From the IMG/VR virus record IMGVR_UViG_3300037153_000113, positions 1-22,190 of that record: 22,190 nt of DNA; one strand, given 5' to 3'. Below the pieces are notes generated by a model that worked only from the letters and a program-made list of their open reading frames with translations, was not told the origin of the DNA and searched no databases. The stretch is from a virus. Shown piece after piece: positions 3,060 through 17,878 of this stretch (position 1 is the stretch's first letter; every line of letters begins with the position of its first letter). The position numbers and the translations under genes were made by a program.

Positions 3060-5824
3060 CCGCACCGCTCATCGCAACGAACCTCGCGACGATTCCGCAA
3101 GTCCGCGCTTGGGCGACTGCGGCTAATCAAATGGGCGCAAGCCAAAATGTCAACGCTACATTTGCAACGGCTACGTTCGGCATCGATGGCACCCGTCCCT
3201 ATGGGCGACGCACGCTCGTAGCAACAACCGGCATTCAAGGGCTTTCGTATCGCAACAACGATCAAGCGTTAGTTGGTGCGGCGCAAGCCTCTTTGCCGGT
3301 CGGTGCGGGTATTCCATGCGCGGGTAAGACGCGAGTACGGCTCAATTGCAAGTACCGCGTTACCGTGGCAAGCGGTGTTGTCGTCCCTATCGCGATCGAA
3401 TGGCGGTTCGCGGACGCGGCATACGCTTGGGTAAATCCGGCATCGACTAGCACGCCGGTAATAAACCTTGTCAATGGGCAATGGGTGGAGGTAAATCTCG
3501 TCCTGCCTGTACCGGCAAACGGTGCCTTTCTTGCGATGCGGTGGTTTACGCAGCACGCTGCCGCGAATGTCGCGCAGGGCGATACCGCCGATATCGCGGA
3601 AGTTCTATTCACCACCGACGATTACGATGGCCCGTATTTCGACGGCGACGCGGATAGGGCGCGGTGGACCGGCGCGGTAAACAATTCCACTAGCGAGCTA
3701 TTCGGCGATGCCCCGCCACAACCGCTACCGCCCCCGCCAAGCGATGTTTCATGCATCGTGTATGTAGAGGGCAACCGCATCGCGGATACCGGGCCGGATT
3801 ACCTCAATGACGTGCCAACCGTCCTTGCCGGTTTATCGGTGGAATGGGGACGCGAGACGGTAGTAGATCAACCGCCCACATCTACATGCAGCTTTACCGT
3901 TGCCGAGCGTCCCGGTATGCGGTCGATATTTCCGGTGCTGCATGTCGGTAACCGCGTAGATGTAGAGGTTGGCTATCAGGACGAATCGATACCGCCCGGT
4001 GCACCGGTCAACGTAGCCGAGGACGGTAACTTTCTCACGATCCCGATTGCACAACGGACGCGGTATGGAACGGGAAGCGTTGCGCGAGCGGTATTGGGCG
4101 GCAATGTCACCATGTTGGGCGTGCAATCGGGATCGATCTACGCGCGCACGACGCGGAGTCTTCCGGCAGCATTCGCGAACGACATGATATTGATTGCGCC
4201 TGCCGCGTTTAGCAACCAATCGACCGCTTGGGACTCGATCCCGCAAGTGCTCCCCGGCTCATCGTGGCAATTGCAATTCTATGCGGGGATGGGTGGCAAC
4301 GGCGATACCGGCTCGCAGACGCCCGGGCAGTATTACCCGCAACCATTGGCGCAAGCGGTGCTCTTCACTTCGCCATCGGCAACCGGTCCGTATAGCTTTA
4401 TTGGTCCGCAAGTCACGCTCGAATCGCTCAATAACTTGCAATGGACTATCAACGTTCCGATACCAACACCGCTCCCGCAAAGAGGATGGCTAGGTCTCGC
4501 GGTATGGCCGCGCCCGCGCATTACATGGGAGAGGTATTGGAGCGCCACCGCGCCATGGACCGGCGCTCTAGACGCTTGGGTAGGGGCGACCGGGTATAAC
4601 CCTAGAGGGCTCGATGATTTACGCATTTCATTCTTCCAAGTGATCACAACGGGCGGCGCGGACTTGCGCCGACAGATGCTCGCATTTGCCGGGCGCATAA
4701 CCGACCTAGAGATAGTCGGCGCGCAAAATGGTAGTTCCCAATGGCGCGCGACATGCGCGGACGTAACCGCCGATATGGCGAATGATGCAATCGGCGATGA
4801 CCCGTGGCAGCAAGAGCGAATAGACGTGCGCGTGCCGCGTATCCAAAGCCTGTCATCGGTGGACTTCACGACGGATATAGATTCCGGTATCGCGCACCGC
4901 GTGATGAGCTATATCGACGTGGACTCGCAACCAACCATCGGACTAATTACCGATATGGCGAATTCATCGGGCGGCATCGTGTGGGCCGCATTCACCACCG
5001 AACGCGGATTCTATCTATGGATCGAAGACCCGGAAAACCGCGTTGCGCTCGGCGCTCTCATGTTCGACGCGAATATCGGGCGTGTCGTGATCGATTGGAA
5101 CCGATACCATCCGGGCGGAAGTGCGATCGTGTCAGCGTGCGATATCCCGCGCGACGCACCGAGCTTCGTGCAAAATGTGAGCGACGTTATTACACGCGTG
5201 GATTTGACGTGGCTAGAACAGACAATGGGCGAGGATGGCGTAACGCCGGAGCCTACAGAGCGCTACGTGCACGTGTGGGATAGCGACGCGGAAGCGCTCT
5301 ATGGCGTGCGCGCCCTGAGCATGTCAACGCAACTAGTCAATAGCACGGCGGCAACGGACGTAGCCACACAAGCGCTCATGCGCCAATCGGATCTACGGTG
5401 GCGGATGCTCAATATCGAATGGGACACCGGGACGCGCGTCCTAACCGATGCCGATCGTACTTACCTACTGCGGATACTTGATGGTGTTACCCGGATCGGG
5501 CTACCCGTGACCATTACCGACTTGCCCGCATGGACGCCGGACTATCCCGCCGTGAATGCCTATCTAGAGGGTGGCACGTACACGTACACCGATGGCGCGT
5601 GGACCGTGGATCTCAATCTAAGTCCGTCGCACACCATCGGCGCTAGCGCGACATGGGCTCAACTGCCGGTTGCATGGAGATGGAATCAATTCGATATCAA
5701 TATCGCATGGTCGGATTGTTGGGGATTGGCGGTATCCGGTACTGCGCTAGCAGTACAGGACGAGCCGGTGCCCGTAATAACCGATCGGCTAATGGGGAGT
5801 AGCTATGGCGTCAACGGGAACTAA
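3056..5824 (+). CDS. Minor tail protein: tail hub with carbohydrate-binding-like domains
   Basis: 922 residues, directly downstream of the tape measure with an ATGA overlap. Residues 1-217 form a beta-rich module ending in YFDGD (194-198) and WTGAVNNSTSE, the ending typical of jelly-roll carbohydrate-binding-like domains in actinophage minor tail proteins. A proline linker (220-228) follows. A hub-like part begins at about 232 (VLAGLSVEWGRETVVDQP, then GNRVDVEVGY) and appears to resume near 560 with FAGRITDLEI and CADVTADMANDAIGDDPW. Between them (about 335-558) is another beta-rich jelly-roll-like segment. The protein probably forms the tail tip and contacts the host surface. No separate distal tail protein gene lies between it and the tape measure. 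Domain borders are estimates. Confidence 0.85.
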   Translation: MTAPLIATNLATIPQVRAWATAANQMGASQNVNATFATATFGIDGTRPYGRRTLVATTGIQGLSYRNNDQALVGAAQASLPVGAGIPCAGKTRVRLNCKYRVTVASGVVVPIAIEWRFADAAYAWVNPASTSTPVINLVNGQWVEVNLVLPVPANGAFLAMRWFTQHAAANVAQGDTADIAEVLFTTDDYDGPYFDGDADRARWTGAVNNSTSELFGDAPPQPLPPPPSDVSCIVYVEGNRIADTGPDYLNDVPTVLAGLSVEWGRETVVDQPPTSTCSFTVAERPGMRSIFPVLHVGNRVDVEVGYQDESIPPGAPVNVAEDGNFLTIPIAQRTRYGTGSVARAVLGGNVTMLGVQSGSIYARTTRSLPAAFANDMILIAPAAFSNQSTAWDSIPQVLPGSSWQLQFYAGMGGNGDTGSQTPGQYYPQPLAQAVLFTSPSATGPYSFIGPQVTLESLNNLQWTINVPIPTPLPQRGWLGLAVWPRPRITWERYWSATAPWTGALDAWVGATGYNPRGLDDLRISFFQVITTGGADLRRQMLAFAGRITDLEIVGAQNGSSQWRATCADVTADMANDAIGDDPWQQERIDVRVPRIQSLSSVDFTTDIDSGIAHRVMSYIDVDSQPTIGLITDMANSSGGIVWAAFTTERGFYLWIEDPENRVALGALMFDANIGRVVIDWNRYHPGGSAIVSACDIPRDAPSFVQNVSDVITRVDLTWLEQTMGEDGVTPEPTERYVHVWDSDAEALYGVRALSMSTQLVNSTAATDVATQALMRQSDLRWRMLNIEWDTGTRVLTDADRTYLLRILDGVTRIGLPVTITDLPAWTPDYPAVNAYLEGGTYTYTDGAWTVDLNLSPSHTIGASATWAQLPVAWRWNQFDINIAWSDCWGLAVSGTALAVQDEPVPVITDRLMGSSYGVNGN

Positions 5825-7319: not shown

Positions 7320-7433
7320 CCTAACGCCCTCAGCGCCACGCTGAGCGACGAACGCCGCGCGGTGCGTGTCCTAGGTACCCCCTACCGTCCCCGGCACGCC
7401 TAGAGCCGCGCGGCGTTCCCCCGGGATGGCCGA

Positions 7434-7457
7434 TGCCGGACGGATGAGCGTCCGGCA
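7434..7457 (+). terminator. Hairpin after the lysis genes, possible terminator
   Basis: Perfect 9-bp stem TGCCGGACG/CGTCCGGCA with a 6-base loop (GATGAG). It follows the end of the late/lysis transcript by about 115 bases. There is no T-run after the stem, so it is only a candidate; a shorter 7-bp stem at 7329-7345 lies closer to the last stop codon. Confidence 0.35.
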
Positions 7458-7660
7458 CCGTGCCGAGCCTCTTACCCCTGCCCGGGGATCGGTTCTCACT
7501 AGTCGCGGAACCGTGCTCACGGGCGGTGCTAACACGTTCCCCGGCGGGGAATATGGCCCGGATTTGGCACTGTTTGGAGATCAACTAGGGCCAAAATATG
7601 TACCCAAACTCGGACATAGCGACGCTCAAATGAACTTGTAGTAGTACCGCATGCCCCGAA

Positions 7661-7717
7661 TTTGCTAGGGTAGAGGCGTGCGACGTTCCCCGGATGGGAA
7701 CGCGGGAATCTAGCAAA
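7661..7717 (+). promoter_or_regulatory. Nested inverted repeats in the integrase leader
   Basis: The outer arms TTTGCTAG (7661-7668) and CTAGCAAA (7710-7717) are perfect complements. Inside them CGTTCCC (7684-7690) pairs with GGGAACG (7696-7702). The outer right arm runs into the integrase ribosome site (AAAGGG 7715-7720), so folding of the leader would partly hide it. The DNA repeats could equally be integrase or regulator binding sites next to attP. Confidence 0.5.
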
Positions 7718-7724
7718 GGGTGAG

Positions 7725-8774
7725 ATGATGGGAAAGATGATCGGGAGCATCGAGCAGCGGGCACGGTCGTGGCGCGTGATTTGGAGCGTGGACGGCAAGC
7801 GGCAAACGCGATCGTTCATCCGTGAGAGTGATGCCGTCGCGTTCCGCGAGCGTCTGACGCGGCACGGTGGAACGTTGCAGGATGGCGACGCGGACGCGCT
7901 CACCGTTGCCGCGCTCTATGACGAATGGGCGCACCGCTACGGCACCGAGCGGCGACGCGGCATCTTCCGGACGATGGCGGAGGGCGAGCCGATCGCAAAG
8001 GCTCACATCGGGACCGTGACCGCCGAGGATTTGACAGACCTTGCCGACACGCTCGCGACGCGCTACGCGGAGACAACGGTTCGGGGGTTTATGAACGCGC
8101 TACGGGCGGCATTCCGGTATGCGCAGAAGCGCGATTACATCGTGAAGAGTCCCGTACCGGATTCGTTCACCATTCGTAGCAAGGTGCGTGCGACCGTGCC
8201 GGTATTTTTGCGCGACGATGAGGCGGACCGGCTCATTGCGGCGATGCCGGAGCGTTTCAGGCTCTTTACGCGCGTGCTGCTTCATTCCGGCATCCGTATT
8301 GGCGAGGCTTACGCGCTCGTTGTCGGCTCGGTGGACGTTGCCGACGATGGCCGCGTGACCCTGACCATTAGCGCGAACGCCAATCAGAAAACGGGCGCGC
8401 TCGGACCGACGAAAACTCGCGATAGCGTGCGCTTCGTACCATTGCCGCGCAATATCTCGCGAGAGGTTGCCGAGCTAGCGAATGGGCGACCGTACGGGGA
8501 ACGGCTCTTTACGCTCCCCGTGTACAACAATTATCTACGCGCACATAAGCGCGCCGTAGCGGATGCAGGCCTACTCGCGAAGTACCCGGGCGGCGTGCGC
8601 ATTCACGACATGCGGCACACGTACGCATCGCGGTTGCTCCGTAACGGCATGTCGTTGTTTCAGGTGTCAAAGTGGATGGGCCATTCTGACGTGGCGATCA
8701 CGGCGAACCTCTACGGCAAGATTCACGTGGACGACGAACGGCTAAATGCGATCGTGGACGCGCTCGAATCCTGA
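7725..8774 (+). CDS. int: Tyrosine site-specific recombinase (phage integrase)
   Basis: 349 residues. The catalytic set is complete: R191 in SGIRIGEA, H294 and R297 in HDMRH, H320 in MGHSD and nucleophile Y330 in ANLYGKI. An N-terminal arm-binding-like segment (SIEQRARSWRVIWSVDGKRQ) and a core-binding domain (about 65-150) precede the catalytic domain. It would integrate the phage at a host attB and, with the excisionase-like protein at 10573, excise it. The start could be 7725 or 7728 (ATGATG); AAAGGG at 7715-7720 suits 7728 slightly better. The gene stands alone, with a structured leader before it and a strong terminator after it. Confidence 0.95.
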   Translation: MMGKMIGSIEQRARSWRVIWSVDGKRQTRSFIRESDAVAFRERLTRHGGTLQDGDADALTVAALYDEWAHRYGTERRRGIFRTMAEGEPIAKAHIGTVTAEDLTDLADTLATRYAETTVRGFMNALRAAFRYAQKRDYIVKSPVPDSFTIRSKVRATVPVFLRDDEADRLIAAMPERFRLFTRVLLHSGIRIGEAYALVVGSVDVADDGRVTLTISANANQKTGALGPTKTRDSVRFVPLPRNISREVAELANGRPYGERLFTLPVYNNYLRAHKRAVADAGLLAKYPGGVRIHDMRHTYASRLLRNGMSLFQVSKWMGHSDVAITANLYGKIHVDDERLNAIVDALES

Positions 8775-8786
8775 GCGCAAAAGAGT

Positions 8787-8814
8787 AGGCCCGGGCAACC
8801 GCCCGGGCCTTTCT
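8787..8814. terminator. Strong, probably bidirectional, Rho-independent terminator
   Basis: A 10-bp perfect stem AGGCCCGGGC/GCCCGGGCCT with an AACC loop, followed by TTCT. It lies 13 bases after the integrase stop and 8 bases before the end of the leftward operon, so it separates two convergent transcripts. On the minus strand the trailing tract is A/G-rich rather than a clear T-run, so termination is expected to be stronger for the integrase transcript. Confidence 0.88.
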
Positions 8815-8821
8815 CATGCCA

Positions 8822-8962
8822 CTACCGCCCGTCGTCGCGTTGCGCCCGGGCTATCTCGATGAGCGCTTTATTGATCGCGACGTCATACCGTAGCCGCTCG
8901 CGCGGGTCACGTTCTCGATTGCGCCGATCCATAAGGCGTCCAACTAGTTCCCGTGCATTCAC
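8822..8962 (-). CDS. Small charged protein, last gene of leftward operon
   Basis: 46 residues starting at a GTG (8962-8960) that overlaps the TGA of the upstream gene (GTGA), giving NARELVGRLMDRRNRERDPR and a helical C-terminal half ending QRDDGR. The frame is open further upstream, but that part is the shadow of the zinc-finger gene. It is predicted to be all-helical and rich in Arg, Asp and Glu. No family was recognised. Tight coupling to the zinc-finger gene suggests a joint function. Confidence 0.6.
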   Translation of the reverse strand: MNARELVGRLMDRRNRERDPRERLRYDVAINKALIEIARAQRDDGR

Positions 8963-9558
8963 TGCAATCCGCTCTCTTTGGCCGCTCGTACAAGAGCGAG
9001 CCGCTCGTCCCGTCCCATGTCGCCGTGCTCTTTGGCGCTGCCTAAATGCGCGGTGAGCGCTTGCAGGCTCGCGAACCGTTTGCCGCATTCCATGACGCAC
9101 GGGAAGCTCTTCGTTCGTGCCGCGTTGCGTGCCTTCGCTTCGGGCGTGACGTTTCGATTGGTTACCGGGAATCCGGCGAGGCGCTGCCGCTCGGCTAGCG
9201 GCAAATCGCCGTGCTTCTTGGTCAAGTGCATCATGAGCGAGTGTGCGGTAAGGGCTACGCCGTATCCGGAATGGCACAACGGGCAATCGTCGGTTGGTGC
9301 CGGGCGCTGCTCTTTGGTCGGTCCGCGCCCGGTCGGCTTACGCGGTGCGGTGGGCACCGTCGCGTCTAGGTCATCGTTCCAATACGTCGAGATTTGCGTC
9401 CACGACGGATCTTTGTGTAACGGGCACACGTCGAGCCGCTTTGCTCGCCCTTCGTAGACGAGCGCAATCGACAATGCCTCTTCGGCGTTTGTCGTCTCGT
9501 CTAGCTCGCCCTTGCACACATCACAGTGCACATCGATGAGCGTTCGAACAGTACGCAT
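8959..9558 (-). CDS. Zinc-finger DNA-binding protein (two C2H2-like fingers plus N-terminal zinc site)
   Basis: 199 residues. The N-terminal part has CDVC (12-15) paired with CPLH (45-48) around a beta-rich segment. A Pro/Arg linker (about 69-88) follows, then a finger with C92/C95 and H106, H111, H116 in CPLCHSGYGVALTAH, and a second with C154/C158 and H171, H178 (CVMECGKRFASLQALTAHL). The N-terminus (LIDVHCDVC, later YEGRAKRLDVC) loosely recalls the dimerisation domain of Lsr2-type nucleoid proteins with an added zinc site; this is an inference. A good ribosome site (GGGGGA) precedes the ATG. As the main DNA-binding candidate in the leftward operon, it may take part in lysogenic control. 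Confidence 0.75.
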   Translation of the reverse strand: MRTVRTLIDVHCDVCKGELDETTNAEEALSIALVYEGRAKRLDVCPLHKDPSWTQISTYWNDDLDATVPTAPRKPTGRGPTKEQRPAPTDDCPLCHSGYGVALTAHSLMMHLTKKHGDLPLAERQRLAGFPVTNRNVTPEAKARNAARTKSFPCVMECGKRFASLQALTAHLGSAKEHGDMGRDERLALVRAAKESGLQ

Positions 9559-11087: not shown

Positions 11088-11219
11088 TACCGAATGTCAG
11101 CATGAGCACACCGACCCGCCACGGCCGAAATGGTTTGTAACGACGAACGGCGAACGATGGCGGCGTTGTATCCGGTGCGGCACGATCCTTTGGGTGATCG
11201 GCGATGACTGATACCGAAT
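11078..11219 (+). repeat. Duplicated 18-bp translation start region
   Basis: CGATGACTGATACCGAAT occurs at 11078-11095 and again at 11202-11219. Each copy carries the end of one ORF (GAT GAC TGA) and the start of the next (ATG ACT GAT ACC GAA), so two successive genes share the same stop-start junction. The segment between copies, 124 bases from start to start, is the whole zinc-ribbon ORF, which could therefore be gained or lost cleanly by recombination between the repeats. Confidence 0.9.
11080..11211 (+). CDS. 43-residue zinc-ribbon protein
   Basis: ATG 11080 overlaps the end of the previous gene by 8 bases and its TGA (11209-11211) overlaps the next gene by 8. It reads MTDTECQHEH, then PKWFVTTNGERWRRCIRCG and TILWVIGDD. 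The metal-binding residues C6, H8/H10 and a CIRC pair form a zinc ribbon, a common type of small phage protein. GGAG at 11069-11072 is a plausible ribosome site. Its first 17 bases repeat at the start of the YqaJ gene, so both proteins begin MTDTE. Confidence 0.7.
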   Translation: MTDTECQHEHTDPPRPKWFVTTNGERWRRCIRCGTILWVIGDD

Positions 11220-12133
11220 ATCTCGATTGGCGATCACGTGGCATCGGTGCATCCGATATCGCGGGCATCTTGGAAATCTCACCATGGGATAGCCCCTACT
11301 CGGTATGGGCGAGCAAGGTGATAAACGCGAGCGGCGACGGTACCGGCTCGAATATGGAGGCGATGAAATGGGGAAAGCTACTAGAGGACGTCATAATTAC
11401 CGAAGCCGCGAGGCGCTTGGATTGCCTCGCGTACGGGCAGCAGACGCGGTGCGAGCATTCCGAGATTCCATGGGCGCGAGCGACGGTGGACGCCTTTTGT
11501 CGGGAGAGCGACGCGGGCGAGGGCGTCATAGAAGCAAAAACCACAGGTGACCCGTATTGGCATGAGCTACCCGCGCACTATGAAGCCCAAGTCTTATGGC
11601 AACTAGAGGTATCCGGGCGTGCGTTCGGATGGGTAGCGGCGTTGCATGCCGGGCGGCGCATGTCGTTGTGGCGCGTAGAGCGGCAACCGGAATTGCAACG
11701 GGCGATGCTCGATGCGGCGCGCATCTTTTGGGACAAGTACGTGATTCCGCGCGTGCCTCCGATCATCGATGGCTTTCCGGGAACGACGGATACGCTCAAC
11801 GCGATGTATAGCTCATCCGACAAGAATTTGAGCATAGAGCTAGACGCATTGGGCGATGAGCTAGATGCATTGAAACGCGTACGCAAGGATATTGCGACGT
11901 TGGAACGTGACCGCGACCGATTGGAAAATACGGTCAAGGCGGCAATGGAGCGAGCCGAAATAGGCACGCTCGGCGGTAAAGAGGTAGTCACGTGGAAGTC
12001 GCGCACAACGCGCCGCGTCGATCTTGACACGCTCCGCGAGAAATACCCGGCGGAAGCGGCGGCGTGCGAGACGGTGACAGAATCACGAACGTTTTTGGTA
12101 AAAGGGGTAGCGAAATCACGAAGTGCGGCATAA
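11204..12133 (+). CDS. YqaJ-type viral recombination exonuclease
   Basis: 309 residues. GIGASDIAGIL (13-23), WGKLLED (56-62, E61), ATVDAF (D96) and IEAKTT (E110, K112), then YEAQVLWQLEV, give the complete lambda-exonuclease/YqaJ PD-(D/E)XK core. A coiled-coil segment near residues 215-255 (LDALGDELDALKRVRKDIAT) and a C-terminal part resembling those of other YqaJ proteins follow. It resects double-stranded ends so that the RecT-like annealase downstream can pair the single strands. ATG 11204 lies in the repeated start region, overlapping the zinc-ribbon gene by 8 bases. Confidence 0.92.
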   Translation: MTDTEYLDWRSRGIGASDIAGILEISPWDSPYSVWASKVINASGDGTGSNMEAMKWGKLLEDVIITEAARRLDCLAYGQQTRCEHSEIPWARATVDAFCRESDAGEGVIEAKTTGDPYWHELPAHYEAQVLWQLEVSGRAFGWVAALHAGRRMSLWRVERQPELQRAMLDAARIFWDKYVIPRVPPIIDGFPGTTDTLNAMYSSSDKNLSIELDALGDELDALKRVRKDIATLERDRDRLENTVKAAMERAEIGTLGGKEVVTWKSRTTRRVDLDTLREKYPAEAAACETVTESRTFLVKGVAKSRSAA

Positions 12134-12219: not shown

Positions 12220-13155
12220 ATGTCAACGCTCAGCGATGCGGTAGAGCGCGCGTCAAAATCGATGCGGGACGCGCCCGACGTAGAACAGACCGCGTTTGGT
12301 CCGGTCGATCAAACGCAAGTGCTCCGGTTGATCGGTCTCGATCCGCGTAATCCGATCGCGCATGCGGTTGTGGCGGTTGCTCGGCGCTACGCGCTCGATC
12401 CGGTGCTAGGGCACATCGCGATCATTCCGAAGGTGAATCGGCCGTACATCACTCGCGATGGGTTCCTACACATCGCGCACCGAAGCGGCCAATTCGACGG
12501 CATGGAAGTACTGAGCGGACCGACGCGCGTCGGTGCCGAATGGATGGCGACGGTTGCAGTGTTCCGGCGTGACATGACGCACGCATTCGTCTACCCGGGA
12601 CGCGCGAGCGTTGCGGCCGACAACGGTCCCGAGATGGCGATCACGCGGGCCGAGCGCCGCGCGCTCAAAAGAGCGTTCGATGTGGCACTGCCGGGAGAGT
12701 TTGGCGACGACGGCGAGAGCGTGACAGTGCCCGTCCCGGCTCTGAGCGCCACGGAGAGCGCCGAACCTGCCGAGCCGCGTGTATCCGGTAGGCCCGAGCC
12801 GCAGAGCGCCGCTCAGAGCGCCACACTCGAGAATGTTGATCTTGACCCGACAGCGCCGACCGGTGCGCCCGTGGAGCTTTCGAACCAACAACGCAAAGCG
12901 ATCTTTGCGCAATGGTCACGGCTCGGATTGGCGGGCACGGACGAAGAGAGCCACGAGACGCGGCTAGCGCTCTACCGGCGGGTGATCGGGCGACCGTTCG
13001 AAAGCACCAAAGACCTAAGCGAAACGGAGGCGAGTCAAGTAATCAGCACGTTGGCAAACGTGTATCCGAACGAAGCGGTAACCGAAGAGATGACCGCACG
13101 GCTAGTAGACACCGTGCACAACAACGAAGGGGCAATGGGCAATGACGACAGCTAG
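12220..13155 (+). CDS. recT: RecT-family single-strand annealing protein
   Basis: 311 residues. The core (about 30-160) has ALDPVLGHIAII, PYITRDGFLHIAHRSGQFDG and EMAITRAERRALKRAFDVA, all characteristic of phage RecT proteins. A Pro/Ala/Ser/Glu-rich linker (about 165-223) leads to a C-terminal domain with LSNQQRKAIFAQWSRLGLAG and ETEASQVISTL, as often found fused to RecT in actinophages. It anneals complementary strands exposed by the upstream YqaJ exonuclease. A strong ribosome site AGGGGGA lies 5 bases before ATG 12220, at the edge of the leader hairpin. It overlaps the next gene by 14 bases. Confidence 0.9.
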   Translation: MSTLSDAVERASKSMRDAPDVEQTAFGPVDQTQVLRLIGLDPRNPIAHAVVAVARRYALDPVLGHIAIIPKVNRPYITRDGFLHIAHRSGQFDGMEVLSGPTRVGAEWMATVAVFRRDMTHAFVYPGRASVAADNGPEMAITRAERRALKRAFDVALPGEFGDDGESVTVPVPALSATESAEPAEPRVSGRPEPQSAAQSATLENVDLDPTAPTGAPVELSNQQRKAIFAQWSRLGLAGTDEESHETRLALYRRVIGRPFESTKDLSETEASQVISTLANVYPNEAVTEEMTARLVDTVHNNEGAMGNDDS

Positions 13156-13672: not shown

Positions 13673-14140
13673 ATGCAATGCCTAGAGGTGACGCTATGCG
13701 ATGAGCAATTTGCATTCGCGGTGAACGTCGGCATAGCGCGCGAGCTTTACGCGAGGACGAAGCGGTACCGCGACGCGTTCGTAAACGGACGCGAGATTGA
13801 TCCGCACGTACTCGGCGCAATTGGTGAGTATGTCGTGTCAAAGTTTCTCGGCGTGTATTGGGATCCGGCAATTGGTGACCTAGACGACGGCAATGGCGAC
13901 GTTGCCGGATACGAAGTCAAATGCACGGTATCTGAGCGGGGATATCTACGCGTCAAAGAGCACAACAACGTAGCGCGTACGTACGTGCTTGTAACGTTCA
14001 TGAACAACGATAGGCACCGCTTCGCCATCCGGGGATGCATGCCGGGCGTAGAAGTCAAAGACATGACGCGACGGTATTTCAATAGCGCGGCGCGAACGTT
14101 CGAAGTGCCGCAACGTGATCTACATCGGTTCCCACCATGA
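13673..14140 (+). CDS. PD-(D/E)XK-fold nuclease-like protein
   Basis: 155 residues. After a helical N-terminus comes LGAIGEYVVSKFLGV (E52), then DDGNGDVAGYEVKCT (D76, E81, K83), the E...D...ExK signature of the PD-(D/E)XK nuclease fold, followed by strands with RTYVLVTFMNN. Such phage nucleases are found near replication and recombination genes and may trim or resolve DNA, or attack host DNA; substrate cannot be told from sequence. It lies in the early operon, coupled by ATGA to a second nuclease-fold gene. Confidence 0.75.
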   Translation: MQCLEVTLCDEQFAFAVNVGIARELYARTKRYRDAFVNGREIDPHVLGAIGEYVVSKFLGVYWDPAIGDLDDGNGDVAGYEVKCTVSERGYLRVKEHNNVARTYVLVTFMNNDRHRFAIRGCMPGVEVKDMTRRYFNSAARTFEVPQRDLHRFPP

Positions 14141-14505
14141 CGCAATATCAGCGTGGCGACCGTAGAGAAAAGCTCGTCATGCGGGCATTAGAGGATAACG
14201 GCTACGTCGCGTGGCAATCGCGGCAGTCACGCGGCTATGCCGATATCATCGCGTTGCAGGCGCAATGCAAGCCGCTGCTAGTGCAAGTAAAGAGCGGACG
14301 TGCGCAAATCAAGCATTATGAGTGGAACATGCTATGGCGACTCGCCCGGCAATTGGAAGCGGTGCCGCTCGTCGCGCTCGAAGCGGAACGCGCACACGCT
14401 AATCAACCGGTCCGTATGGAATTCGTGCGGATACTCGGCGAGCACAAAGCGTATGGCCGCGATTGGCCCGGGGCACCGTACACGCCGATGATGGGCGCGC
14501 GGTGA
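14137..14505 (+). CDS. Holliday junction resolvase-like protein (Hjc/RecB-fold)
   Basis: 122 residues. RGDRREKLVMRALEDNGYVA (E11) followed by SRGYADIIAL (D36) and LLVQVKSG (K52), then HYEWNMLWRLA, closely follow the archaeal-Hjc-type resolvase pattern, except that Gln50 stands where the ExK glutamate is usual. If active it would resolve branched DNA produced by the YqaJ/RecT system before packaging. ATG overlaps the upstream TGA, and its own TGA overlaps a GTG start. The Gln substitution may lower activity or be a tolerated family variant. Confidence 0.75.
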   Translation: MTQYQRGDRREKLVMRALEDNGYVAWQSRQSRGYADIIALQAQCKPLLVQVKSGRAQIKHYEWNMLWRLARQLEAVPLVALEAERAHANQPVRMEFVRILGEHKAYGRDWPGAPYTPMMGAR

Positions 14506-14942: not shown

Positions 14943-15048
14943 AGAAGATCACGACGACGGCGAGGTAGAGCCGCTCGATAGCCACGGCCGGACGCCGGAT
15001 TGGCATTGGCCGCGCGGGTATGGCGGTGACAATTCCGTGCCATGGTAG
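14923..15048 (+). CDS. Small charged protein at the end of the early operon
   Basis: 41 residues: MEAERRKEDHDDGEVEPL, then DSHGRTPDWHWPRGYGGD and NSVPW. It overlaps the preceding membrane-protein gene by 20 bases. The frame is open to 14848, but that part lies in the shadow of the membrane gene. The start is uncertain, with no strong ribosome site. It is the last ORF before the non-coding origin-like block. Confidence 0.45.
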   Translation: MEAERRKEDHDDGEVEPLDSHGRTPDWHWPRGYGGDNSVPW

Positions 15049-15115
15049 GCACATTGTTGTATAGACAAAGCTAGCGATCGTAGATCAATACCGGCGAGTA
15101 CGTCCACACTTCGAA

Positions 15116-15124
15116 TGTGGATAA
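15116..15124 (-). promoter_or_regulatory. DnaA box (perfect TTATCCACA, minus strand)
   Basis: TGTGGATAA on the plus strand is the exact reverse complement of the consensus DnaA box. It faces the boxes at 15225-15241 about 100 bases away, in opposite orientation. Confidence 0.75.
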
Positions 15125-15224
15125 CCATGTTTCACCCGTGGCACTTTAGTGGTCCGCCATTGCTACTAATTCAAGCGCTTACACCAAGGATTACCGAGGG
15201 CTCGTGATTAGTAGACCAATTCGG

Positions 15225-15241
15225 TTATCCACATATCCACA
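15225..15241 (+). promoter_or_regulatory. Two overlapping DnaA boxes
   Basis: TTATCCACA at 15225-15233 is a perfect box and ATATCCACA at 15233-15241 matches 8 of 9 positions, sharing one base. Tight tandem boxes in direct orientation are typical of functional DnaA clusters. Confidence 0.75.
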
Positions 15242-15291
15242 GTGCCGACGTTAGATAACTACGTAACTGTACCGACGGGCTCACTTACCGA

Positions 15292-15319
15292 GGCGCGAGC
15301 ACCGCTCTTAGCTCGCGCC
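15292..15319 (+). terminator. Hairpin at the end of the origin-like block
   Basis: GGCGCGAGC (15292-15300) pairs perfectly with GCTCGCGCC (15311-15319) around a 10-base loop; two more pairs are possible past a one-base bulge. No T-run follows, so it may be a terminator without a U-tract, or part of the origin. It ends 5 bases before a GTG (15325) that could start the next ORF. Confidence 0.4.
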
Positions 15320-15393
15320 CTCAGGTGAAAGGTTTACAACACCGCACGCGCGCGCGTAGCGTCCGTGAAATCCCGGCGAATTCGGGGGCGATC

Positions 15394-16414: not shown

Positions 16415-17878
16415 ATGTCGAAAGCGCTAGAAGCGTTTACCGAGCGGGGTATAGCGCATGTGCCCGATTCGGTGCCTCTTCCGCGCTTCGTGACGCCGAT
16501 TCACCCCGACCGGAAGCTTTCATGGGGCGATAGCGCCGAGAAATTCGCGGCGATGCTGCCTATTCACGGTGGACGTGTTGCGGAATTGCGACCGTGGCAG
16601 CGTTACGCATTGGACCGTGCTCTCGAAGCCGACGCGGACGGCAATCTGCTATGGGAAACGGTGATACTGAGCGCGCCGCGTCAGGTTGGCAAGTCGGTAT
16701 TGGAGCGGATCGCGGTTACATGGCGCTTACACCAATCGCATCTCTTCGGGCAGACGCAAGACATTGTGCACGTCGCTCATAACTTCCGCACCGCTTTGGA
16801 GATTTACCGACCGGCGGCGCGGTGGGCATTGCAAGCGCTCGGCAAGAGCTACGTTCGGCAAGCGCAAGGTCAGCAGCAAATCGAATTGCCGGACGGATCG
16901 CGGTGGATGATCCAAGCGGCGACCGATGGTGCGGGTGTCGGCTTCGCGTTGACGATGGTTCTTGTAGATGAGGCGTGGCGTATTCAACGGTCCGTTGTCG
17001 ATGCCGCTCTTATGCCGACGTTGACCGAAGCGAATAGCGGGCAGCTATGGCTAGTGAGCACGGCGGGCACGTCCACGAGCGATCTTATGAAGGCGTACCG
17101 AAATGCGGCGCTCAACGGCAGCGAATCAATCCTCATTCTCGAATGGTCCGCACCGGACGACGAGAGCCAAGACATAACCGATCCCGAGCTTTGGCGCATC
17201 GCCTCGCCGTATTGGGACGACAAGCGCGAGCAGCACGTAAAGCGGCGCTTGGACACGTTGACCGAATGGAATTTCCGGCAGCAGTACCTCAATCAATGGG
17301 TGCCGAACATGCAAGCGCCATTGCTCGGTGCCGATGTGGCGCGCACCGTCGAGACCTTGCAGCCAATGCCCGATGTGCCCGTGTCGTTCGGCGTGGACGT
17401 GGCAACCGACCGAAGCCACGCGGTGATCGTTGCCTATGGCGGACTCATCGCTGAGGTTGTGGACGAAAACATTCGTGAGCGCACCGGCGTGTCATGGCTA
17501 CCGGCGAGAATCAAAGAGCTAATCGAGAAATGGAATCCGCTAGCGGTTGGGTTCGATGCGAACGGTCCGGGCGCGAGCATTGCGGATGCACTAAAGCTTG
17601 ATCCGGATTACGCCGATGTAATCGTGATGATGAGCGGCCGCGAAATGTGCGCCGCGAGCGGTCAACTATTCGACGCGATCCACGCGGGCGCGTGGCACGT
17701 TCGTCCGCACGACCGGATGGCCGCGAGCCTGACCGGTGCACTGCGGCGCGGCTACGGGCAATCGTGGACATTCGCGCGGGACGCCCCTACGTCCGGATGC
17801 CCCGTAATAGCCGCTAGCGCGGCGCTATGGGCATCGGCGCACGCTCCCGCGACCGTGGAGGCAAGCGCCATATGGTGA
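16415..17878 (+). CDS. terL: Terminase large subunit
   Basis: 487 residues. Walker A-like APRQVGKS (87-94), Walker B VLVDEA (D185, E186), a motif-III-like LVSTAGTS, and the nuclease acidic residues in GVDVATD (D328, D332) and VGFDANGPG (D381). It powers DNA packaging into proheads through the portal and cuts the genome at cos or pac. The ATG at 16415 has only a weak AGG directly upstream and GAGGTAGGA at 16395-16403. Its end overlaps the portal start (ATGGTGA at 17872-17878). The C-terminus is somewhat shorter than in many actinophage terminases but includes the nuclease domain. Confidence 0.95.
   Translation: MSKALEAFTERGIAHVPDSVPLPRFVTPIHPDRKLSWGDSAEKFAAMLPIHGGRVAELRPWQRYALDRALEADADGNLLWETVILSAPRQVGKSVLERIAVTWRLHQSHLFGQTQDIVHVAHNFRTALEIYRPAARWALQALGKSYVRQAQGQQQIELPDGSRWMIQAATDGAGVGFALTMVLVDEAWRIQRSVVDAALMPTLTEANSGQLWLVSTAGTSTSDLMKAYRNAALNGSESILILEWSAPDDESQDITDPELWRIASPYWDDKREQHVKRRLDTLTEWNFRQQYLNQWVPNMQAPLLGADVARTVETLQPMPDVPVSFGVDVATDRSHAVIVAYGGLIAEVVDENIRERTGVSWLPARIKELIEKWNPLAVGFDANGPGASIADALKLDPDYADVIVMMSGREMCAASGQLFDAIHAGAWHVRPHDRMAASLTGALRRGYGQSWTFARDAPTSGCPVIAASAALWASAHAPATVEASAIW

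Follow-up and report, generated by a model that had tools for sequence, protein, structure and literature searches.

A cluster of DnaA boxes that goes beyond chance was found in the second-largest non-coding gap of a small phage genome. We consider it probable, at around 60%, that this gap is the replication origin of the phage and that it recruits the DnaA protein of the host directly. Tailed phages, as generally described, bring at least an initiator that redirects the host helicase to the phage origin, like lambda O or SPP1 G38P, and in the part of the literature that was covered no case of a tailed phage with a DnaA-only origin has been described. For one phage with a polymerase of its own, annotation of a DnaA-box origin by Ori-Finder is on record (PMC11512268).

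The phage genome

The window, i.e. the whole stretch of 22,190 nt that was analyzed, consists of a circle of 22,063 bp and a terminal overlap of 127 bp, the latter probably reflecting the assembly k-mer. It represents a temperate siphovirus-like phage, the main features of which are listed in Table 1. The product encoded at 14137-14505 was identified as an Hjc-like resolvase on basis of a structure model of moderate confidence (pLDDT 66) for which the top PDB matches were archaeal Hjc proteins; the model for the neighboring frame (13673-14140; pLDDT 34) was too poor for use. A comparison at the DNA level with the phage collection yielded no similar record and no near match among known phages, and a scan with Rfam yielded nothing. 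Distant relatives of the TerL and portal proteins were recovered from IMG/VR contigs and from two Promicromonosporaceae genomes, and because of these the host is probably an actinobacterium. The search for a host via prophages and the attachment region returned only distant prophages and matches that were short and weak, and searches of the viral contigs with RecT and YqaJ returned only the record of the closest relative (L038, see below) or nothing. Upstream of the integrase two palindromes of the form TTCCCC-N4-GGGAA were observed (7537-7551 and 7686-7700), far above chance expectation and with similar palindromes upstream of the integrase of L038, which are probably operator or integrase-accessory sites.

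Table 1. Features of the window, with those of the gap and its surroundings given first
Feature	Position	Strand	Remark
Non-coding gap with candidate origin	15049..15324		276 bp; second-largest gap, after 7320-7724
GTATAGACAAAGCTA	15059..15073	+	Left edge of gap; also L038:8739-8753
Possible weak DnaA box ACGTCCACA	15100..15108	+	TCCACA core
12-nt perfect inverted repeat	15115-15126/15223-15234		Holds the opposed boxes
Perfect DnaA box TTATCCACA	15116..15124	-	Consensus match
Inner repeat CTACTAAT/ATTAGTAG	15163-15170/15207-15214		Inside the 12-nt inverted repeat
100-bp stretch of lowest stability in the circle	15166..15265	.	Nearest-neighbour energy, rank 1
Perfect DnaA box TTATCCACA	15225..15233	+	First of overlapping tandem pair
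8/9 DnaA box ATATCCACA	15233..15241	+	Second of tandem pair
GC-rich hairpin GGCGCGAGC/GCTCGCGCC	15292..15319	+	Right edge of gap
Tape measure	888
Tyrosine integrase	7725..8774	+	Temperate-phage marker
Cro-like regulator	10322
Excisionase-like HTH	10534
YqaJ/RecE-like exonuclease	11204..12133	+
RecT/Bet-like single-strand annealing protein	12220..13155	+
Putative Hjc-like Holliday-junction resolvase	14137..14505	+	Predicted structure resembles 1gef
TerL (terminase large subunit)	16415..17878	+	Query for relatives
Portal	17827
Capsid	19818

DnaA boxes and DNA stability in the gap

The gap is bounded on the left by the last small ORF of the early region, which ends at 15048, and on the right by zinc-ribbon/HNH-like genes that are followed by TerL. 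Boxes were scored against TTATCCACA allowing at most one mismatch, a consensus that may not be the one used by the host. In this way the initial annotation, which had placed two perfect boxes and one 8/9 box in opposed arrangement within one of the largest non-coding blocks, was confirmed: one box lies on the minus strand and two on the plus strand, the latter sharing a single base. Over the whole window, three boxes are an unremarkable number (shuffle mean 2.3). These three are the only sites with at most one mismatch in the entire circle and all fall within 126 bp (15116-15241). When 3000 genomes were simulated with an order-2 Markov model, none matched the score of the cluster; of 1500 9-mers taken from the genome itself, 9 did. 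The circle contains seven TCCACA cores, four of which are found at 15100-15241.

The tandem boxes belong to the 100-bp stretch with the lowest stability in the circle (energy -1.335, against a mean of -1.536 with a standard deviation of 0.064), and this stretch is a candidate unwinding region. The inverted repeats and the duplicated TTACCGAGG (15191/15285) that had been put forward as further origin features do exist. A 9-nt direct repeat occurred in 23% of simulated 276-bp stretches, and for a 12-nt inverted repeat, counting palindromes, the figure was 13%. Since both are this frequent, they add little, and neither the duplicated TTACCGAGG nor the 12-nt inverted repeat was retained as a signal by itself. 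At the edges of the gap, the GC-rich hairpin is a possible terminator, and GTATAGACAAAGCTA, whose 15 identical bases constitute the sole clear match between the syntenic gaps of the window and L038, is a possible promoter or protein site. GC skew, named as a check in the initial annotation, was calculated for third and fourfold-degenerate positions and showed no switch at the gap (~15.2 kb), which in a small mosaic genome speaks neither for nor against an origin.

Absence of a recognizable initiator

No initiator, helicase, primase or polymerase was recognized in the window using Pfam, PHROGs or a custom profile, in agreement with the earlier statement that the circle lacks a primase, helicase, polymerase or Rep gene. 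The custom profile, which was run at maximum sensitivity, was derived from nine related contigs (L006-L010, L019, L020, L024 and L047) that encode a small replication-initiation protein upstream of TerL. These nine proteins have matches in PHROGs families annotated as 'replication initiation protein' or to one another, with L047 doing so more weakly; a further relative, L043, encodes an O-like initiator that is unrelated to this type. The protein shared by the nine contigs is absent from the window and from its nearest relative L038. The best E-value obtained with the profile in the window was 0.28, and only background scores were found in the window, L038, L002, L055 and the record that contains L076.

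The corresponding gap in relatives

The closest relative of the phage is L038 (TerL 75% and RecT 61% identical, same gene order, end overlap of 123 bp). The syntenic gap of L038 again consists of very unstable DNA and holds no box; a single box occurs in the whole 21.3 kb, and no initiator was found. Of all observations, those on this contig argue most strongly against a DnaA mechanism that is conserved within the lineage. Copies resembling GAATCATTCAC were observed in L038 at 8710 and 8757.

Boxes were found in the corresponding position in two more distant relatives. In L002 (TerL 51%), TTGTCCACA at 80 and TTATCCACA at 289 are located on either side of the least stable 100 bp (137-236), directly upstream of an HNH-like gene and TerL; the contig is 8.8 kb long and truncated upstream, so that the absence of an initiator holds only for the available sequence. 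In L055, a prophage of Xylanimicrobium pachnodae, the gap that precedes TerL contains GTATCCACA and TTGTCCACA at a distance of 41 bp. The box scores of L002 and L055 were not reached in any of 4000 simulated stretches. The small actinophages RRH1 and Decurro showed no box cluster.

Box arrays and DnaA-trios in other viral contigs

In the basal unwinding system (BUS) of a B. subtilis-type oriC, DnaA boxes are followed by DnaA-trios and then by AT-rich DNA. The tandem TTATCCACATATCCACAG of the window (15225-15241) recurs in viral contig L094, directly before DnaA-trios. No trios in the right orientation were found in the window, where at most one trio follows any box, and given that none follow the tandem TTATCCACATATCCACAG the window is not a proven oriC-type element.

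A wider search with the inverted pair TGTGGATAAC-N85-115-GTTATCCACA recovered 69 loci in viral contigs versus none for a scrambled palindrome of the same composition, an enrichment that is based on this single control. TerL was identified by phrog_2 in 21 of 50 tested records, and not every contig is a verified phage. Among the 69 loci, L076 belongs to a relative of the phage (TerL 36%, portal 27%, protease 31%). In the gap at 8446-9022 of this record (L146; 21.8 kb), five boxes at 8558-8695 are followed by CTACTACTACAACTACTG, which constitutes DnaA-trios (as defined in PMC10797057) in the polarity known from the oriC of B. subtilis. An Erf-like annealase gene directly precedes the element, which also represents the 100 bp of lowest stability in the record, more than 5 standard deviations below its mean stability; neither an initiator nor a DnaB-type helicase was found. 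By its sequence L076 is a complete BUS-like origin and a cleaner test case than the window. In L096, eight DnaA-like boxes occur within 200 bp (3876-4075) upstream of a putative TerL; this contig also encodes a RepA/DnaB-like ATPase. Both L076 and L096 were recovered via the box search and can therefore not be counted as unbiased support.

We found that TTATCCACA followed by four CTA trios is present in 15 viral contigs (L094, L099, L103, L123 and L150-L160). Seventeen records were checked, covering the box-plus-trio contigs, L085, L076 and L096. TerL was identified by phrog_2 in eight of them, one encodes a DnaB-type helicase and none encodes DnaA, which makes it unlikely that they are stray chromosomal origins located beside dnaA. 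The TerL frames of L077 and L103 contain internal stops (TAG and TAG plus TAA, respectively), reflecting either recoding or decay.

Comparison with known origins

The element resembles a bacterial oriC/BUS in its clustered boxes, its same-strand tandem pair, the adjacent least stable DNA and the fact that no dedicated initiator was found; it differs in having only three to four boxes and no trio run (trios being present in L076, L094, L103 and L123) and in being part of a tailed-phage genome. With the iteron and P1-type origins (RK2, F, P1, pSC101) it has in common that an AT-rich region adjoins DnaA boxes in a mobile replicon, but those origins need a Rep protein and iterons. Neither was found here. 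There is no iteron array in the gap, where repeats of 9 and 16 nt occur in just two copies. Like lambda, SPP1 and the staphylococcal phage 80alpha, the phage would belong to the tailed phages that use host replication enzymes together with annealing recombinases. The origins of those three are located inside the phage initiator gene (O and G38P in the former two), whereas the element of the window is intergenic and no such gene was found, which also sets it apart from its relatives L008, L009, L019, L024 and L043 with their initiator-type genes. Phage-plasmids, finally, carry replication and partition genes for an extrachromosomal prophage. Among the genes of the window that were scanned, none was recognized as serving partition or maintenance, and an integrase is present. 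The proposal that excision yields a plasmid-like replicon found no support: what was seen is a temperate phage circle with an end overlap.

A probable host-DnaA origin and its alternatives

If the gap is indeed an origin, host DnaA would bind the opposed and tandem boxes at 15116-15241, and possibly the one at 15100 as well, and would open the least stable DNA at around 15166-15265, after which the host helicase would be loaded. An initiator, helicase loader or primase of the phage itself would then not be needed, and YqaJ, RecT and the Hjc-like resolvase may turn the products into concatemers by recombination. We favor this direct recruitment because the cluster goes beyond chance and overlaps the DNA of lowest stability, because the relatives either encode an initiator protein or, for several of them, have boxes at the equivalent place, and because the initiator-less L076 combines boxes with DnaA-trios. 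Counting against it are the box-free gap of L038, the presence of only three to four boxes, the lack of trios and the lack of a skew switch. The recruitment of the host initiator suggested in the initial annotation is thus supported by the cluster, the unstable DNA and the relatives, and is not proven in view of the latter observations (the small number of boxes apart).

The location of the gap between the early and the TerL-proximal genes, the GC hairpin within it and the AT-rich DNA, which suits promoters too, would also fit a regulatory region. Host DnaA would in that case control transcription in the direction of the packaging and structural genes or couple lysis to the cell cycle of the host, and the start of replication would lie at another place. 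A consensus scan recovered no sigma-70-like promoter, a result that weighs little for actinobacteria, and such regulation leaves both the missing initiator and the DnaA-trios of L076 unexplained; we regard it as unlikely. Somewhat less credit still is given to the idea that replication is recombination-dependent, with YqaJ, RecT and the Hjc-like resolvase initiating synthesis on structures that arise from host replication or invasion, and the boxes being auxiliary or vestigial. The window does contain a full recombination module, L038 has the same module and zero boxes in its gap, and annealing proteins have been found to be required for phage replication in staphylococcal phages (PMC5499656). 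Nevertheless, the relatives with YqaJ, L038 excepted, keep an initiator protein, for which reason the module alone is not obviously enough, and the combination of a cluster and unstable DNA recurs in L002 and L076.

The opposed boxes could also pair as a hairpin, thus forming a single-strand primosome site where DnaA loads the helicase on ssDNA that results from the exonuclease and RecT or from rolling-circle copying. As a single strand, 15095-15250 folds better than shuffled sequences on both strands (z -2.8 and -2.5), and the centroid structures show the boxes paired; the two boxes of L002 pair in its best structure. In the minimum-energy structure of the window, however, the two boxes are not paired with each other, other stretches of the genome fold equally well when GC content is taken into account, and a search for a nick-initiating Rep found none. 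The A site of the R6K ABC-primosome resembles the window in that the opposed boxes could put a box in a hairpin stem, but the loop in the window is far larger and there is no sign of a single-stranded mode. We regard such a primosome site as very unlikely. Least probable of all, and by our estimate nearly negligible, is a chance cluster or a functionless remnant of some plasmid or piece of chromosome that was acquired recently: it would agree with the fact that a single genome is concerned and that the syntenic gap of the closest relative shares just 15 nt and zero boxes. Against it speak the 3000 simulations and the fact that L002 and L055, too, have boxes in their corresponding gaps.

Implications

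The data may tentatively be extended, with somewhat less than even odds, to a group of small actinobacterial phages, scattered and equipped with recombinases only, that would have lost their own initiator and would replicate like miniature bacterial chromosomes, relying on oriC-like elements and host DnaA alone, the window carrying a reduced version of such an element and L076 a complete one with trios. A DnaA-only phage would be bound to the initiation control of its host and would compete with oriC for DnaA. The gap would then represent a natural minimal DnaA origin of less than 300 bp, and the approach provides a route to the origins of many small phages without recognizable replication genes.
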